From positions 62,001-126,000 of the forward strand of contig JAUJNZ010000004.1 in the NCBI GenBank assembly GCA_030447905.1: a stretch of 64,000 nucleotides of DNA, given 5' to 3'. The position numbers were made by a program, and so were the translations under genes. This DNA is from Thermoleophilaceae bacterium. Its GTDB lineage: Bacteria; Actinomycetota; Thermoleophilia; Solirubrobacterales; Thermoleophilaceae. The first letter of the stretch is position 1. Each line of letters starts with the position of its first letter. Under the pieces are notes generated by a model. The model saw only the letters and a list, made by a program, of their open reading frames with translations, made no database searches and was not told where the DNA came from. Of this stretch, positions 28,216 to 37,036 are shown in pieces.

Positions 28216-28875
28216 TCAGCAGCTCGTCCGCGCCGGCCCGGTCCAAGTCTCGAGCAGAGGTGCCACGAGCGTCTCCACGTTCTCACGCACGAGGACGGTC
28301 ATCTCCTCGGCTCCGTCGCTGTCGTGCCACATCTCCGCCGCCACCCGAAAGGCGGTACCGACAGCCGCCGACACGAGTCGCGGACGCCGGTGGCCCGCCT
28401 CGACGCCGAGGCGCAGGGCCATGAAGTCGCGCAGAACGAGCTCCATGCCATGCACCATCTCGAGGAACCCGGCGGCCAGCCGCGGAGTCGTCGTGACCAG
28501 GCGCATCCAGGCGAGCTCGCGGTCGCGGTCGGTGCTGTGAAGGGCGGCGAAGACTCCGAGCATTCCCCGCAGTGAGTCCATCACCGGCTCATGCGGTGGG
28601 CGCTCGCCCAGGCTGCGGGCGGCGAGGGCCATCTTGTCGCGGCCGCGGGCCAGGAGCAGATCCTCCTTCGAGGCGAAGTAGCGGAAGAACGTGCGCGGGG
28701 AGATCAGCGCCGCCTCGGCGATGTCCTCGATGGTCGTCGCGCCGTAGCCGCGCTCGAGGAACAGGCCCAGGGCGGTCGCCTCGATGTCGTCCCGGGTGCG
28801 CGCCCGCCGGCGCTCGCGCACGCTCTCGACGACCGCCTCCGACGCACTGGATGGCTTTTTGGCAGCTTGTGTCAT
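28216..28875 (-). CDS. TetR-family regulator
   Basis: 219 residues from ATG 28875 (the open frame continues upstream but runs through the promoter region). The DNA-binding domain spans about 20-68: RRRARTRDDIEATALGLFLE, GYGATTIEDIAEAALISPRT and FFRYFASKEDLLLARGR, the standard TetR helix-turn-helix with a Phe-x-Tyr-Phe signature. The ligand domain has the TetR_C-like segments around MRLVTTTPRLAAG. It is divergent from the RND pump, and a 26-base inverted repeat overlaps its start codon, so autoregulation and control of the pump are likely. Confidence 0.92.
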   Translation of the reverse strand: MTQAAKKPSSASEAVVESVRERRRARTRDDIEATALGLFLERGYGATTIEDIAEAALISPRTFFRYFASKEDLLLARGRDKMALAARSLGERPPHEPVMDSLRGMLGVFAALHSTDRDRELAWMRLVTTTPRLAAGFLEMVHGMELVLRDFMALRLGVEAGHRRPRLVSAAVGTAFRVAAEMWHDSDGAEEMTVLVRENVETLVAPLLETWTGPARTSC

Positions 28876-28899
28876 AGTGACGGCCGTTGCCGCAACTAT
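28874..28899. promoter_or_regulatory. Inverted repeat, probable TetR operator
   Basis: Two half-sites: ATAGT-N2-CGGC, a CGTT spacer, and GCCG-N2-ACTAT, a perfect match on nine positions per arm. It covers the start codon of tetR and lies about 110 bases upstream of the RND start, the geometry expected if the repressor controls both genes. Confidence 0.6.
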
Positions 28900-29006
28900 A
28901 GTCCCAAGCCGAGCATCGCGCCGCTCTACCGTCGGTGGCCGTACTCCGACTGGCCCGCAGCTCTCCGAGCTGAGCCAACCGTGACGCAACCGCGAGCGAG
29001 CGACCC

Positions 29007-32000
29007 ATGACCGCAATCGTCTCCTGGTGCCTGCAGCGCCGGTCCGTGGTGATCCTCGCCAGCCTCCTGATTCTCGGCGCGGGCGCCTACGGGGCGACGC
29101 AGCTACGCCAGCAGTTCTTTCCCGAGGTCGACTTTCCCTTCGTCATCACCAACCTCGAGGTGTCGGGCCTCGACGCCGAGGGCGTCGACGAGCAGGTGGC
29201 TCAGCCGCTCGAGTCCGCGGCCAGCAACCTCGAGGACGTCGAGGCCACCCGGACTCTGTCGAGCGAGGGTCGCGTGACCCTCGTCACCGAGCTCGCCTAC
29301 GGGACCGACACCAAGCAGTTCGAAGAGGATCTCGCTCGCGAGCTCGCGTCCGTGCCGCTGCCCCAGGGCGCTGGGGAGCTCGACATCGGTGGCGGGTTCG
29401 ACGAGCAGGCCGTGCTCAACGCCGCGATCAGCACCGACGGTGATCTGGTCGACCTCACCGAGCGGGCCGAGGACGTCCAAGATGAGCTCGAGGGGATCGA
29501 CGGTGTCGGACGCGTCGAGCTCGAGGGCGGTGGGGAGGAGGAGTTCGCCGTCGAGCTCGAGGAGAAGGCGGTGCGCCGCGGCGAGACGCCCGCGAGCCTC
29601 GCGACGAAGATCCAGAGCGCGCTGCGCGAGGCGCCGGTGGGGCTCGTCGAGCGGGACGGGGCGCGGACCCCCCTCCTGGTCGATCCGGGCACCGTAGACG
29701 ACCGCAAGGAGCTCGAGCAGCTGCCGATCTCCGACCGCCGCGAGGTCAAGGACGTCGCCACCGTCCGGCGCCAGCCCGCCGAGGGCACGGGCTTCGCGCG
29801 CGTCAACGGCAAGCCGGCGATAGCGCTGTCTGTCTTCACCGAGGACGACGCCAACCAGGTCCAGGTCGTCGACGACTCGCAGGCAGTGCTCGCCCGCGTG
29901 GAGCGCGGTCTCGGCGACGTTGAGGTCACGACGGTCTTCGAGACCGCTAGCGACGTGAAGGCGTCGGTCAACGGTCTTCTGCTCGAGGGAGTGCTCGGCG
30001 CTCTCTTCGCGACAGTGATGATCTTCGTCTTCCTTCGCTCCCTGCGCCCGACGCTGGTGGCGGCCGTATCGATCCCGACCTCGATCGTCTTCGGCCTGCT
30101 CGCCGCCTGGGCGCTCGGCCTGACGCTCAACGTCATCACGCTCGCGGGGCTGACCATCGCCATCGGCCGGGTGATCGATGACGCCATCGTCGTGCTCGAG
30201 AACATCTACAAGCACCTCGAGCGCGGCGAACCGCGAACGCAGGCGGCCCTCGAGGGGACCGCGGAGGTCGCAAACGCGATCGTCTCCTCGACGCTCGCCA
30301 CCGCCGCGGTCTTTCTGCCGCTCGGGGTCGTCGGTGGGCTGATCTCGGAGATCTTCTTCTCGTTCTCGATCATCGTCGTCGTCGCCCTGCTCGCCTCGCT
30401 GCTCGTCGCGGTGACGGTCATACCGGTGCTCGGCGCGACCTTCATGCGACCGAGGGGCCGGCCGAAGGAGGAGGCCGGCCCGCTCGCGCGGATCGTCACG
30501 CCGATCACCCACTTCGGCATCCGCCCGTTCGGTCGCGTGGTGGTCATCGCCGCCGCCTTCGCGGCTCTGATCGGCACCATCTCCGTGGTCGCGGGGGGCG
30601 GCATCCCGGTCCAGTTCCTGCCCGACAGCGGAACTCAGCAGGCCTTCGGGACGGTGGACCTGCCCGCCGGAGTCGGCCCCGAGCGCGCCGAGCGCCTGTT
30701 GCGACCCCTCGAGGACCGGCTGAACGGGATCGACGGGATCGAGAACGCCCAGGTCACCTTCGGCGGCGCGGGCGTCCAGACCGACGAGGTCGAGGACACC
30801 GAGAACGGCGCCTTCTTCGCCAACTTCCAGGAGGGGGTCGACGTCAACCGGGTGACGGCCGAGCTGCGGCGCTTCGGTGAGCGGGAGTATCCCGAGGGCT
30901 TCACCGCCGACCGGCTCGAGCAGGGGCCGCCCGCGGGTCAGTTCGAGGCGACGGTCGTGGGCGACGACCAGGAGGACGCCGAACGGGCAGCGGCCCGGGT
31001 GACCAGGCTGCTCGAGAGGCGCGGGGACCTCGCTCAGGTCGACAACGAGGCGGCCGACGAGCAGACCCAGTTCGTGCTGGAGATCGACAGGGACGAGCGT
31101 GGCACCGAGGATCAACAGCGGGCCACCCAGGCCCTCGCCGCCCTCGTGGCGCCGGCGGACGCGGGCACGATCGGAGACGACGACGTCCCGGTGCTCGTGC
31201 GAGCGCCCTCGGGCCTGCTCGAGGACGCCGACGCGCTCGAAGACGTTCCGCTGGCGCCTCGGGCGAGCGAGGCGGCGGGCGCAGGTGCGATACCACCGGG
31301 CGGCGGAGCCCCTCCCGGCGCAGGCGGACCGCCCGCGGGTGGCATATTTCCCGGCGGTGCACCTCCCGGCGGCGGCGCGCCCCCGGGGGGTGGTTTACCT
31401 CCCGGCCGCGCGCCTCCCGGGGCCGGGGCACCTCCGGGGGCTGGCCTACCGCCCGGCGCCGCCCCTCCCCGCGGCGCCCGTCCCCGCCGCGCCCCGGCCC
31501 CCGGGGGCAGTGACCCCAGAGGGGGAGCACCTCCCTCGGGCAGGGACTCTCCCCACTGCTCCGATCGCCTCGACAACGACTCGGACGGGACGACCGACTT
31601 CGCCGAGGATCAGGGCTGCGGCTCGGTCACCGACGACTCGGAGGCCCCCGACGCACCGAACTGCTCCGATCGCCTCGACAACGACTCGGACGGGAAGGTC
31701 AACTTCCCCGAGGATCCTGGCTGTGCCTCGCCCATCGACGACTCGGAGGCCCCGGACGCCCCGTCGGGCGGGTCTGCTTCGCGTGGCGGTGCGGCCACCA
31801 GGTCTGGCGCGGAGGCGGTAGTTCTCGTGGGCGTCAGGCAGCGCGCCGCAGGCACTCCGGCCGTGAGCGGAGCACCCGGCGCGAGCGCGGAAGCCGGCGC
31901 GGGCCTCACCCCCGTTGCCGCCGGCGGAGGATCAGGCGCCGGCGCCCCACCTGCGGGCGGAGGAGGCGGGGCCCCCACGGGCGCGGGTGGCGCTACTGCC

Positions 32001-33056
32001 CCTGGCGCCGCCTCTGGCGGAGCAGGCGCAAGGAGCCCGGCCGCGCCTGGCGCATCCGAGGCCGGCGCGGCCGCTTCCGGCGCTGCCCCGGGCGCCCCCG
32101 GAGCGGCCGCAGCCGCCGCCTCCGGTGCCACCACACGGTCGGGCCGGCGCGACACGGTCGGCGACGTAGGAGAGGTCGTGCGCCAGAAGGCTGCAGGCAC
32201 CCTCTCGCGCGTCGACTCCGAGCCGGCCGTCCGCGTCTCCGCGCGCATCCTCGGAGAGGACGTGAACGCCATCAACCGCGACATTCAGTCCGAGGTCGAC
32301 GACTTCGGCCTCGCGAACGCCCGCGTTGACCTCGGGGGCGATCAGGAGTTCATCAACCAGATGTTCACCGACCTCGGCACCGCGATCCTCGCCGCGATCG
32401 CGCTCGTCTTCGTCGTGCTTGTCGTCTTCTTCGGCTCGACGAGCCAGCCGATCACGATCCTCGCTCCCGTGCTGTTCTCGAGCATCGGTAGCCTGCTCGC
32501 CCTGATCGTCACCGACGCGGCGCTCGGTCTGCCCGCCATGATCGGCCAGCTCCTCCTGATCGGGATCGTCGTCGCCAACTCGATCCTGCTCGTCGACACC
32601 GCGCTTCGTCAGCGTCGCCTGGGCGTGGACCGCAGCGAGGCGCTCGTGAGCGCGGCCCGCCTGCGTGTGCGACCGGTCCTCATGACCGCACTGGCCACCA
32701 TCGTCGCGCTCCTGCCGCTGGCGGCCGGCCTCTCGGGCGAGGGCGGCATCATCTCCCGATCGCTCGGGGCGGTCGTGATCGGCGGCCTGCTCACCGCCAC
32801 CTTGCTGACCCTGGTCATCGTGCCCGCCGTCTTCTCGACCTTTGACGGGTTCGGCCAGCTTCTGGCGCGATTGCTCGGCGGCGGGCCCGAGCCCTCACTC
32901 GCCGGCGCTCCAGGGAGGACCTCGGGGAGCACTTCGGACGGGCCTGACCCGAGCCGGGGGGCGGATCCGGTGGCGTCAGGCCCACCCGGCGATGGCGCCG
33001 ACCCTGGAAACGGTGGCGGGCGCCTGGAACGACCGCCCGAGCCCTCAGAGCCCTAG
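29007..33056 (+). CDS. RND (AcrB/HAE1-type) efflux pump with a large low-complexity insert
   Basis: 1349 residues, about 300 longer than usual. The N-terminus (SWCLQRRSVVILASLLILGA) and the ATQLRQQFFPEVDFPFV block are typical; transmembrane helix 4 has GRVIDDAIVVLENIYKHLERG with the Asp-Asp proton relay. Helices 2-6 lie at about 325-480 and 7-12 at about 515-535 and 1120-1290. Between about residues 761 and 1061, in the second periplasmic loop region, lies a Pro/Gly/Ala-rich stretch that includes two CSDRLDNDSDG repeats. The end is again disordered. It probably exports lipophilic compounds. No periplasmic adaptor or outer-membrane channel is nearby, as expected for a single-membrane host. Confidence 0.85.
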   Translation: MTAIVSWCLQRRSVVILASLLILGAGAYGATQLRQQFFPEVDFPFVITNLEVSGLDAEGVDEQVAQPLESAASNLEDVEATRTLSSEGRVTLVTELAYGTDTKQFEEDLARELASVPLPQGAGELDIGGGFDEQAVLNAAISTDGDLVDLTERAEDVQDELEGIDGVGRVELEGGGEEEFAVELEEKAVRRGETPASLATKIQSALREAPVGLVERDGARTPLLVDPGTVDDRKELEQLPISDRREVKDVATVRRQPAEGTGFARVNGKPAIALSVFTEDDANQVQVVDDSQAVLARVERGLGDVEVTTVFETASDVKASVNGLLLEGVLGALFATVMIFVFLRSLRPTLVAAVSIPTSIVFGLLAAWALGLTLNVITLAGLTIAIGRVIDDAIVVLENIYKHLERGEPRTQAALEGTAEVANAIVSSTLATAAVFLPLGVVGGLISEIFFSFSIIVVVALLASLLVAVTVIPVLGATFMRPRGRPKEEAGPLARIVTPITHFGIRPFGRVVVIAAAFAALIGTISVVAGGGIPVQFLPDSGTQQAFGTVDLPAGVGPERAERLLRPLEDRLNGIDGIENAQVTFGGAGVQTDEVEDTENGAFFANFQEGVDVNRVTAELRRFGEREYPEGFTADRLEQGPPAGQFEATVVGDDQEDAERAAARVTRLLERRGDLAQVDNEAADEQTQFVLEIDRDERGTEDQQRATQALAALVAPADAGTIGDDDVPVLVRAPSGLLEDADALEDVPLAPRASEAAGAGAIPPGGGAPPGAGGPPAGGIFPGGAPPGGGAPPGGGLPPGRAPPGAGAPPGAGLPPGAAPPRGARPRRAPAPGGSDPRGGAPPSGRDSPHCSDRLDNDSDGTTDFAEDQGCGSVTDDSEAPDAPNCSDRLDNDSDGKVNFPEDPGCASPIDDSEAPDAPSGGSASRGGAATRSGAEAVVLVGVRQRAAGTPAVSGAPGASAEAGAGLTPVAAGGGSGAGAPPAGGGGGAPTGAGGATAPGAASGGAGARSPAAPGASEAGAAASGAAPGAPGAAAAAASGATTRSGRRDTVGDVGEVVRQKAAGTLSRVDSEPAVRVSARILGEDVNAINRDIQSEVDDFGLANARVDLGGDQEFINQMFTDLGTAILAAIALVFVVLVVFFGSTSQPITILAPVLFSSIGSLLALIVTDAALGLPAMIGQLLLIGIVVANSILLVDTALRQRRLGVDRSEALVSAARLRVRPVLMTALATIVALLPLAAGLSGEGGIISRSLGAVVIGGLLTATLLTLVIVPAVFSTFDGFGQLLARLLGGGPEPSLAGAPGRTSGSTSDGPDPSRGADPVASGPPGDGADPGNGGGRLERPPEPSEP
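31556..31765 (+). repeat. Two 105-base direct repeats inside the RND insert
   Basis: Copies start at 31556 and 31661, 35 codons apart, with a nearly identical 35-base opening. Each encodes CSDRLDNDSDG, a second acidic turn (FAEDQGC or FPEDPGC) and a D-D-S-E-A-P-D-A-P tail. The D-x-D-x-D-G spacing is like calcium-binding thrombospondin-type or dockerin-like loops, with one Cys pair per unit. Confidence 0.8.
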
Positions 33057-33117: not shown

Positions 33118-34017
33118 CTACGCCGCTACGAGCTCCGCCACCTTGCGCTGCACCTCGCGCGTCCTGACGACGTGCTTGTCCATGCCGAGCTCCCCGGGCT
33201 CGAGGCCAAGCGCAAGCCCCAGCAGCTGCGGCAGGTGCAGCACGGGAATCCCCAGCCCACGCTCCACGTACTTCTCCGCCTCGGGCTGCTGGAGGTCCAG
33301 GTTCAGGTGGCAGAGCGGGCAGGGAGTGACCAGGCAGTCCCCGCCGGCGTCGATCGCGTCCGCCAGGTGGCGGCCGGCCTGGCGCAGCGATGTCGCGCGC
33401 GCCATGGTGATCACCGGGAAGCCGCAGCACTTGTGTGACCCCGCATAGTCGACGGTCGTCGCGCCGAGCGCCTCGATCACCTGATCGAGGTAGAAGTCCC
33501 GCTCGGGGAACTCGTCGTAGCCGAGCCGGCCGGTCGGGCGGACGATGTAGCAGCCGTAGAACGGCGCCACGCGCAACCCCTCGAGCGGGCGGACGACCTT
33601 CTCCTGCAGGGCATCGAGCCCGATGTCCTCGACGAGGAGCCAGAGCAGGTTCTTGTTCGTCCACTCGCGCCCGCCGCGCTCGTAGGTCAACCCCTCCGGC
33701 TCGAGGTGCGAGTTGATCATCGCCCGGTAGTCGGGGTCGGCGTCGAGGCGCTGCTGGCACTCCGACTGCGCGCCCTGGCAGGTCGAGCAGATGTTCATCA
33801 TCTGAACGCCGGTCTGTTGGGCCATGGCGAAGGTGCGCGCGTTCAGCGTGTCGACGAGCTCCTGGTTGTGCTCGGCGATCACCCCGGCGCCGCAGCAGTT
33901 CGCGCGGTCGAGCTCGATCAGCTCGAGGTCGAGCCTGGGCGCGACGGCGGCCATCGAGCCGTGCAGCTCGGGGGTGAATCCGCGCGATACGCAGCCCGGC
34001 CAGTACGCGACCTTCAC
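33118..34017 (-). CDS. CCG-domain iron-sulfur subunit of succinate dehydrogenase (HdrB/SdhE type)
   Basis: 299 residues from GTG 34017, overlapping the sdhB stop. Two CCG modules: N-terminal GCVSRGF, NCCGAGVIAE, ICSTCQGAQSEC, then GCYIVRPTGR, KCCGFPVITMARA and TPCPLCHLNL. Such HdrB-like subunits replace the cytochrome b anchors (SdhC/D) in type E succinate:quinone reductases known from archaea and some bacteria; the CCG cysteines bind [4Fe-4S] or a non-cubane cluster and one Zn. I avoid the symbol sdhE because it also denotes an unrelated flavinylation factor. It is the last gene of the sdhAB operon. Confidence 0.9.
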   Translation of the reverse strand: MKVAYWPGCVSRGFTPELHGSMAAVAPRLDLELIELDRANCCGAGVIAEHNQELVDTLNARTFAMAQQTGVQMMNICSTCQGAQSECQQRLDADPDYRAMINSHLEPEGLTYERGGREWTNKNLLWLLVEDIGLDALQEKVVRPLEGLRVAPFYGCYIVRPTGRLGYDEFPERDFYLDQVIEALGATTVDYAGSHKCCGFPVITMARATSLRQAGRHLADAIDAGGDCLVTPCPLCHLNLDLQQPEAEKYVERGLGIPVLHLPQLLGLALGLEPGELGMDKHVVRTREVQRKVAELVAA

Positions 34018-35180
34018 TGGACCGCCGCTCCCTGCTCGGTGCCGGCCTCGGGGCCGGTCGCCACCTCGGCCGCGTCGCCCATCGCCGGGGCTTCGGCGCC
34101 CGCGTCGGGGCCCCATTCGTCGCCCTCGGCCTCGTCCCCGACGATGTACAGGTTGAGCTCGATCCGCTCGCCGCGGGACTCGACCTCGTGGTAGATCCGT
34201 CGCACCTGGTCCTGGTCGGGCAGCTTCTTGTGCCAGATCGCCTTGACCGGCGAGACCTTCCCGGAGCGCAGGCCGTTGATGACCGTGGGGAGTCCCTCGG
34301 CGAGTTGCTTGAGGGAGTCCGGTCTGACCTGGCTCTTGACCAGCGAGCCGTCGGCGTAGGAGCGGGGCAGGAGCTGGGACTCGTGGAGCGTGCCGTACTT
34401 GCGCACGATGTCGACGAACGCCTTCTCGTGCCCGTAGCCGTTGTTGGAGTCCTTGATCCCGTAGTCGCCGCTGGCGCGGCGGCGCAGGCGCATGATCTGG
34501 CTCATCGGCGCGACGTCCTTGGGGCACACCTCGATGCAGGCGAAGCAGTGGGTGCAGTCGTAGATGCCGTGCGGATCTTCGGCGAGGTCGCGCAGGCGCT
34601 CCTCGGTCTGGGAGTCGCGCGGATCGCCCACGAAGCGGTAGGCCTTCGCGAGCGCGGCCGGACCGACGAACTCGGGGTCGACCTCCATCGACAGGCAGGC
34701 CGACACGCACGCGCCGCATTGGATGCACGCCATCGACTGGGTGATGTCGATCATCGACTCCGCGGGGACGACGTACTCGCGCTCGGGAGGCTCCCCCTCC
34801 GGCAGGAGCCACGGCACGACCCGCTGGATCTTCTTCCAGTGGACCGCGTCCATGTCGACGATCAGGTCCTTGAGCACGGGCATGTTCCCCATCGGCTCGA
34901 CGACGATCGTTCCGTCCTTGGAGCGGCCCTCTTCGCTGGCCACGCCGAGCTGGGTATTGCAGGCGAGCCGCGACTGGCCGTTGATGCGCACGCCGCACGA
35001 GCCGCAGATCGCGGCCTGGCACGAGCACCGTATGCCGAGCGAGTTGTCGGTGTCGGCCTTGAACTTGAGGATGGCGTCGAGGACGGAGCGCTCCGGCCCG
35101 AGCTCGACCTGGATGTCCTGCCAGTAGGCGGACTCGCCCGACTCGGGGTCGTAGCGACGGACCTTGAGGTCGAAGCTCAT
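34014..35180 (-). CDS. sdhB: Succinate dehydrogenase iron-sulfur subunit, with extra cluster cysteine
   Basis: 388 residues, longer than the usual 240-260. A [2Fe-2S] domain has CSCQAAICGSCGVR and SRLAC; the first C-terminal cluster motif is CIQCGACVSAC and the second is CTHCFACIEVCP. In ordinary SdhB one of the cysteine positions in the second motif is non-Cys and gives a [3Fe-4S] cluster; here all positions are Cys, so a second [4Fe-4S] is expected, as described for type E enzymes. A polar C-terminal extension of about 120 residues follows. Overlaps the CCG subunit gene by 4 bases and is 10 bases from sdhA. Confidence 0.93.
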   Translation of the reverse strand: MSFDLKVRRYDPESGESAYWQDIQVELGPERSVLDAILKFKADTDNSLGIRCSCQAAICGSCGVRINGQSRLACNTQLGVASEEGRSKDGTIVVEPMGNMPVLKDLIVDMDAVHWKKIQRVVPWLLPEGEPPEREYVVPAESMIDITQSMACIQCGACVSACLSMEVDPEFVGPAALAKAYRFVGDPRDSQTEERLRDLAEDPHGIYDCTHCFACIEVCPKDVAPMSQIMRLRRRASGDYGIKDSNNGYGHEKAFVDIVRKYGTLHESQLLPRSYADGSLVKSQVRPDSLKQLAEGLPTVINGLRSGKVSPVKAIWHKKLPDQDQVRRIYHEVESRGERIELNLYIVGDEAEGDEWGPDAGAEAPAMGDAAEVATGPEAGTEQGAAVQ

Positions 35181-35190
35181 CGAGATAAAC

Positions 35191-36882
35191 CTAGTAGGTC
35201 CGCGCCTCGGGCTGCCACTGCGTCAGCGTGACGTCGGAGTAGGCGAGCTCGGGGACCTCGCCGTCGGAGCCGTTGTGGGTGACGGTGATGTGGCGCAGCC
35301 AGTCGTCGTCGTTGCGCTCGGGAAAGTCGGTGCGGTACTGGGCGCCCCGGCTCTCCTTGCGCTCGAGCGCCCCCATGACGATCGCCTCGGCGTTGTCGAG
35401 CATGAACCCAAGCTCGAGCGCACCCAGCACGTCCTGGTTGAAGATCGTGCCCTTGTCGTCGGTGGCCACGGTCTTGGCCTCCTCCTGGAGGCGCTTGACC
35501 ACCTCGAGGGCCTCCCCGAGACCGTCCTCGTCGCGGAACACGGCGACGTTCTTGTCCATGATCTCTCCGAGCTCGGCGTGGAGCTCGGAGACCCGCCTGC
35601 CGGTGCGCTCGCGCCCCACGATCGCCTCGATCGCTGATTTCTCGTGCTCGAGCTGGGCCCTGGAGGCGCTCGGCATGACCATCGCCTTGGCCTCGCGAGC
35701 CGCGCGGGCGCCGGCGCGGCGGCCGAAGACGAGCGTGTCGAGGAGCGAGTTGGCGCCGAGCCGGTTGCCTCCGTGCACGGACACGCAGGCGGTCTCGCCC
35801 GCGGCGTAGAGGCCGCTCACCGGAGTGTGCCCGTCCGTGTCGGTCTTGATCCCGCCCATCACGTAGTGGTTGCCCGGCTTGACCGGGACCGGCTCGCGGG
35901 TGATGTCGACACCGGCGAAGTCGCGCGCGATCATGACGATCTCCCGCAGCGCCTCGTGGATGCGCTTGCGCGGCACCTTGGTGATGTCGAGGTGGACGGT
36001 GCCGTCCTCGAAGCCGCGGCCCTCATCGATCTCGATCTGCTCGGCGCGCGAGACGACGTCGCGGGACGCAAGCTCCATCTTGTTCGGCGCGTACTTCTCC
36101 ATGAAGCGCTCGCCCTCGGCGTTGTAGAGGTGGGCTCCCTCGCCGCGCGCGCCCTCGGTGATGAGCAGCCCGTTGCCCGCGAGCGTCGTCGGGTGGTACT
36201 GGACCATCTCCATGTCCATCAGCGGCGCGCCGATGCGGTAGGCGAGCGCGATCCCGTCGCCCGTGCACACGAGCGCGTTGGTCGTAGGGTCGTAGACCTG
36301 CCCGTTCCCGCCGGTGGCGAGAATCACCTGCTTGGCGTGGAAGAGCTCCATCGCGCCGTCGCGCAGGTTGCGCGTGACCGCGCCCGCGACGTTGCCGGAG
36401 TCGTCCTGGACCAGCGCGGTGACGAAGAACTCCTCGTAGCGACGGACCTCCTGGTGCTTCATGAGCTGCTCGTAGAGCACGTGGAGGATGGCCTGACCGG
36501 TGATGTCGGCTACGTAGTAGGTCCGCGCGGCGGAGGCGCCGCCGAACGCGCGCGTACCCAGCATGCCCCCATCGTTGCGGTGGAAGGTCGTGCCGAGATG
36601 CTCGAGATGAAGGATCTCCTCGGGAGCCTCCCGGCACATGATCTCGATCGCGTTCTGGTCGCCGAGGTAGTCGGAGCCCTTGACGGTGTCGAAGGCGTGT
36701 GACTCCCACGAGTCCTCGGGGTTCAGCGCGGCGTTGATACCGCCCTGCGCGGCGTTCGAGTGCGAGCGCACGGGGTGGAGCTTCGAGACGATGCCGACCG
36801 TGGCGCCGCCCTCGGCGGCGGCGAGCGCGGCGCGCATGCCGGCGAGGCCGGCGCCGATTACGAGGACGTCGTGGTGGGGCAT
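35191..36882 (-). CDS. sdhA: Succinate dehydrogenase flavoprotein subunit
   Basis: 563 residues from ATG 36882. N-terminal FAD-binding motif [20 protein letters not shown]; the FAD-linking His lies in [38 protein letters not shown] and [11 protein letters not shown]-like segments form the dicarboxylate site. The C-terminal capping domain is intact, ending in a tail with QWQPEARTY. It oxidises succinate to fumarate and passes electrons through SdhB to the CCG subunit. Longer upstream reading is possible but is arginine/serine-rich and rejected. Confidence 0.96.
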
Positions 36883-37036
36883 CTCGTTGGCTCTTGAGGA
36901 GTACGGGGACGGAGGGGAGGAGGGTCGAACCCGCAAGACGATTCTACGGGACGGTGATAGCGGCAACCCGTGGTCAGACGCTGACTCACCCGCGCCCCGA
37001 GCGGGAGGCACAACGCCCGCAGTCGCCTTGACGGGG

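Follow-up and report, generated by a model that had tools for sequence, protein, structure and literature searches.

The window, a 64,000-nucleotide stretch of DNA from a soil, Thermoleophilaceae-like actinobacterium (genome G000), encodes an adaptor-free AcrB-type pump in which the docking hairpin has undergone a genuine, lineage-specific expansion; its site, its conservation and its genomic context are established. The pump type is known; what is new is the expanded hairpin, which carries an acidic module. The features of the locus, numbered from the first nucleotide of the window, are:

28216..29016, - strand: TetR-type regulator, divergent from the pump, which it possibly controls (PF00440, E 1.5e-15)
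29007..33056, + strand: AcrB/HAE-1-type RND permease, 1349 aa (PF00873, NCBIfam RND permease models, PDB matches, Foldseek)
31260..32153, + strand: 298-aa insert, residues 752-1049, where crown beta-hairpin 2 of the DC (funnel/docking) subdomain would have its turn (alignment, pLDDT)
31260..31553, + strand: Pro/Gly/Ala-rich arm, residues 752-849, predicted to be disordered (composition; divergence between G000 and its relative G001)
31557..31661, + strand: acidic Cys repeat, copy 1, CSDRLDNDSDGTTDFAEDQGCGSVTDDSEAPDAPN (NF033662 match, the pair being below cut-off; also in G001)
31662..31766, + strand: acidic Cys repeat, copy 2, CSDRLDNDSDGKVNFPEDPGCASPIDDSEAPDAPS (as for copy 1; also in G001)
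31773..32153, + strand: Ala/Gly-rich arm, residues 923-1049, predicted to be disordered (composition; divergence between G000 and G001)
32154..32859, + strand: the pump resumes with the returning DC strand TVGDVGEV, the remainder of loop 2 and TM8-TM12 (second stretch of PF00873)

The pump and its neighbouring genes

In a profile search of the open reading frame, the ACR_tran family PF00873 matched with an E value of 9.4e-149 and 497.5 bits (gathering score 28), in two stretches with the insert lying between them. The closest solved structures in the PDB are MdtB, CmeB and AcrB, and a Foldseek search returned CusA, AcrB and CmeB. The multidrug RND subfamily models of NCBIfam remained under their curated cut-off of 1250 (NF033617 with 429.6 and NF000282 with 287.8), and a plasmid search with the pump gave generic RND matches and nothing more specific. 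The fold, the two-stretch ACR_tran match, the Asp pair of TM4 and the funnel/docking subdomain are shared with the HAE-1 pumps AcrB, MexB, MdtB and CmeB, from which the window pump differs by the 298 residues inserted in crown hairpin 2. The remaining excess length lies in a C-terminal tail of low complexity, about 65-70 aa long.

Alignment with AcrB shows that the Asp-Asp pair of TM4 (AcrB D407/D408) is kept (GRVIDDAIVVLEN), whereas the position of AcrB K940 in TM10 is occupied by Ala, and by Ser or Thr in relatives from the same class. Lysine at this position is a feature of AcrB itself rather than of every AcrB-type RND member, and its absence alongside a retained Asp pair means that proton coupling may differ from that of AcrB. 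By homology, the protein would act as a homotrimer with proton-driven export; trimerisation and expression are both assumed on this basis.

The divergent TetR gene is retained beside the pump at one related locus (L020) and was not found at the other loci compared. Its open reading frame, read from a TTG start, overlaps the start of the pump by 10 bases, and a later start is likely. On the other side of the pump, the minus strand of 33118-37011 encodes an SdhB-like protein followed by a Cys-rich protein (CCG-like, as judged by eye) adjoining an SdhA-like flavoprotein, which together form a non-classical succinate dehydrogenase/fumarate reductase cluster.

Site and composition of the insert

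The initial annotation had described an insert of about 300 residues at 31290-32200. The insert is real, although its limits, as set by alignment to Escherichia coli AcrB and class relatives, are slightly different (31260-32153, 298 aa). In the alignment with E. coli AcrB it takes the place of A794-D795-G796 in the DC hairpin YVRA-ADG-QMVPFSAF. The TolC docking model assigns residue D795 to crown beta-hairpin 2 (PMC2292822), the crown hairpins of AcrB form cross-links to TolC (PMC2292822, PMC4446572), and hairpins 1 and 2 are gripped by the beta-barrel of the adaptor AcrA (PMC6975555). By alignment, the insertion site is thus the AcrA-gripped, TolC-facing docking hairpin of Gram-negative pumps, a point absent from the initial annotation. 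The outward-facing location first proposed is borne out, since the extracytoplasmic domain carries the insert at its top, a position common to the close relatives.

The insert consists of two low-complexity arms flanking an acidic part. The first arm contains 30 Gly, 28 Pro and 20 Ala in 98 residues, the acidic part (residues 850-922) has 17 Asp in 73, and the second arm contains 43 Ala and 33 Gly in 127. When the C-terminal half was modelled with AlphaFold2, most RND residues had moderate pLDDT values of 70-90, and residues from about 760 to 1045 fell below 50. Since almost no homologues could be aligned there, the low pLDDT is weak evidence for disorder, which it fits without proving. Because most of it is predicted to be disordered (pLDDT <50), the insert is unlikely to be an adaptor, as first suggested, if by this a folded hairpin protein is meant. 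The idea that VLVGVRQRAAGT within the insert arose by duplication of the strand VGEVVRQKAAGT was dropped, as this pattern is not conserved in G001.

Conservation and history of the insert

An insert of this kind could in principle be an assembly artefact or unrelated sequence fused into the gene, and two genomes, G002 and G003, have contigs that break off inside the region. However, contig ends are expected here, given short-read assemblies and GC-rich low-complexity repeats, and the window lies on a 237-kb contig on which the pump frame is open throughout. Moreover, G001 (JACCTJ010000234.1, Thermoleophilaceae bacterium MGR_bin71), a separate assembly of a species of the window genus, covers the Pro-rich arm and then both repeats, in the order and frame seen in G000, before its contig ends within the Ala/Gly arm. 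The same architecture in an independently assembled member of the genus shows that the insert is not a misassembly and largely refutes the artefact reading, which is left as extremely improbable. A DNA-pattern search for the acidic repeats found none in G002, G003 or G018, the contigs of the first two stopping within the insert. A close relative with an otherwise identical protein and no insert was also looked for: in same-genus relatives the insert is present or the contig breaks off within it, and the only pumps without it are about 46-50% identical.

Genome searches that used core segments of the pump as queries gave a match, at the threshold used, in 19 of 299 genomes of the class. Among the aligned class pumps, an expanded turn occurs only in the window genus, in L033 (G018) and in L021 (G262). 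In the latter two the insert is located at the same turn and is Pro/Ala- or Ala-rich; in contrast to that of the window, it is only about 70-95 residues long and the acidic repeats are absent. The pump segment that follows the insert (32154..32859) is 70% identical in L033. The orthologous Thermoleophilia pumps L023 and L024 share 46-48% identity over the C-terminal half and the same hairpin strands, but have an ordinary short turn (e.g. PVATSDGRELRLGDVA). Surveying Thermoleophilia homologues at this site reveals inserts in close lineages and a short turn in the other aligned pumps. A tree built without the insert (from a short search, with some long branches) groups the window genus with L033 and places L021 nearby in an unresolved fork; this placement fits either one or two gains of the insert.

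Divergence within the insert

The core of the pump is 88% identical between G000 and G001, with a dN/dS of 0.17. The acidic part is 74% identical with a dN/dS of 0.62, a value not significantly below 1 (P 0.19, one species pair). The arms differ by both substitutions and indels, with 57% identity in the Pro/Gly/Ala-rich arm and 41% in the Ala/Gly-rich arm, the fastest-evolving part. Within the repeats, none of the 14 substitutions between the two species falls at the 20 family-typical positions (P 0.0024), these positions (10, from the motif) having been picked by eye from the repeats of other proteins. This suggests that the Cys/Asp pattern of the repeats is maintained; a function of the repeats is nonetheless unproven, given the non-significant dN/dS and the single species pair.

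These data bear on the proposal that the insert is functionless, having grown by GC-rich slippage at a tolerant surface turn that caught an acidic module by chance. In its favour are the low-complexity arms, which evolve rapidly and differ by indels, the insert lengths ranging from about 70 to 300 and the similar low-complexity tail at the C-terminus of the same pump. However, conservation of the frame and of the repeat motif in two species, with all 20 motif positions unchanged, argues against it. Purely neutral growth is possible, if on the unlikely side.

The acidic Cys repeats

The two 35-residue copies are identical at 26 of 35 positions (counted by eye), and each contains two Cys in both species. 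As a pair, they match the NCBIfam model NF033662 (acid_disulf_rpt) with an E value of 4.5e-7 and 29.5 bits, which does not reach its cut-off of 41. This E value, together with the presence of both copies in frame at the same place in G001, indicates that the repeats are not due to chance. They share with this family of acidic double-disulfide repeats the motif C-S-D-x-x-D-N-D-x-D-G ... D-x-G-C and the arrangement in tandem copies. However, among the NF033662 instances examined, those of the window, although below the cut-off as a pair, are alone in lying within a membrane pump. A literature search found no paper that names NF033662 or the DNDGDG motif.

Repeats of the NF033662 type were matched in 23 of 199 genomes of the class, and none of the repeat-bearing open reading frames examined is similar to RND pumps. 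Elsewhere in G000 (C24:328285-328362; L001, L017), another protein on a partly masked contig carries a single acidic Cys repeat, CSDGRDNDGDGKVDHPADTDCGSRADDSE, and after it repeats that look Ig-like. Occurrence in other proteins of the class, with this further copy in the same genome, makes module capture a plausible origin of the acidic repeats in the pump.

The initial annotation had read the Asp-rich repeats as calcium-loop or disulfide-stabilised units. In favour of this, the DxDxDG pattern and the flanking Cys are present (the loop DNDSDGTTDFAE agrees by eye with DxDxDGxxDxxE) and the repeats lie near a known acidic Cys-repeat family. The Pfam models EF-hand_1 (8.5 bits), EF-hand_5 (8.6 bits) and MopE (10.4 bits) all remained under their cut-offs on the repeats, with E values of about 0.8-2, which is chance level, and AlphaFold2 gave a model of the repeat pair with no confidence (pLDDT 49, pTM 0.18). 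The arm could plausibly bind metal or touch the wall.

A more specific proposal, along the lines of the wall contact or adaptor role suggested at first, treats the repeats as binding sites for Ca2+ or for cationic polymers of the wall, which would keep the mouth of the pump in or near the peptidoglycan; the arm would thereby anchor the pump to the wall and replace the adaptor. Such a role would be in keeping with an insertion site in the adaptor-binding hairpin, acidic motif positions that are identical between species, loops that combine DxDxDG with Cys, and recurrence of the module in other proteins of the class. However, the failure of the EF-hand and MopE models, the weak selection signal, the sister-lineage inserts that have no repeats and the lack of confidence in the repeat model make it unlikely. 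Taken further, the arm would be a cis-encoded stand-in for the missing adaptor: three disordered tethers, bearing acidic knobs stabilised by metal, would keep the exit funnel of the pump pressed to the wall of the single-membrane cell. This elaboration is decidedly improbable.

Adaptor context and loss of the docking constraint

HAE-1 pumps are described as almost confined to Gram-negative bacteria, and Gram-positive phyla were omitted from a survey of these families published in 2024 (PMC10872679). Actinobacteria except Corynebacteriales are described as monoderm (PMC10746217). A tripartite HAE-1 efflux system includes an adaptor and a TolC-type channel; in contrast, neither HlyD_D23 (only one adaptor model) nor OEP, the TolC-type channel, was detected in G000, which is 95% complete. 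A genome with no detected adaptor is in line with the first reading of the insert. The genome contains a single full-length ACR_tran pump and a fragment of 92 aa (C21:94877-95017; L088), an open frame that matches the C-terminal end of ACR_tran only and is perhaps a pump remnant.

A follow-up search found no HlyD_D23 match in 13 of the 19 genomes, several of which have short turns; G219, G257, G042 and others lack HlyD_D23 yet retain the short turn. Absence of the adaptor is thus wider than the insert, meaning that it permits the expansion but does not alone cause it. G001 does have an HlyD_D23 match, on a short contig next to an ABC ATPase. This HlyD-type fragment (C138; L093) adjoins a double-ATPase ABC gene and no RND pump, and may represent a YhiI/RbbA-like system or contamination of the metagenome-assembled genome.

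Loss of the docking constraint is the best inference for the origin of the expansion. It is reasonably probable that, in an adaptor-free, single-membrane lineage, the hairpin lost this constraint, grew a disordered low-complexity arm and gained an acidic module of the surface-protein type. Crown beta-hairpin 2 would have been released from docking in a single-membrane cell, its freed turn becoming a permissive site at which Pro/Gly/Ala-rich low-complexity growth lengthened the turn; a duplicated acidic module, of a type known from other proteins of the class, would then have been acquired in the window genus. If the pump is a trimer like AcrB, the mouth of its funnel would bear three arms pointing towards the cell wall. 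The DxDxDG/Cys modules would most likely be small knobs stabilised by disulfides and possibly by metal, which may provide a hydrophilic anchor or spacer close to the exit, with no part in catalysis or transport.

Implications

AcrB-type pumps of single-membrane bacteria have been little studied. A docking hairpin that has been freed and rebuilt shows the fate of an interface once its partners are absent, and the window pump offers a natural test for roles of the crown hairpins beyond docking.
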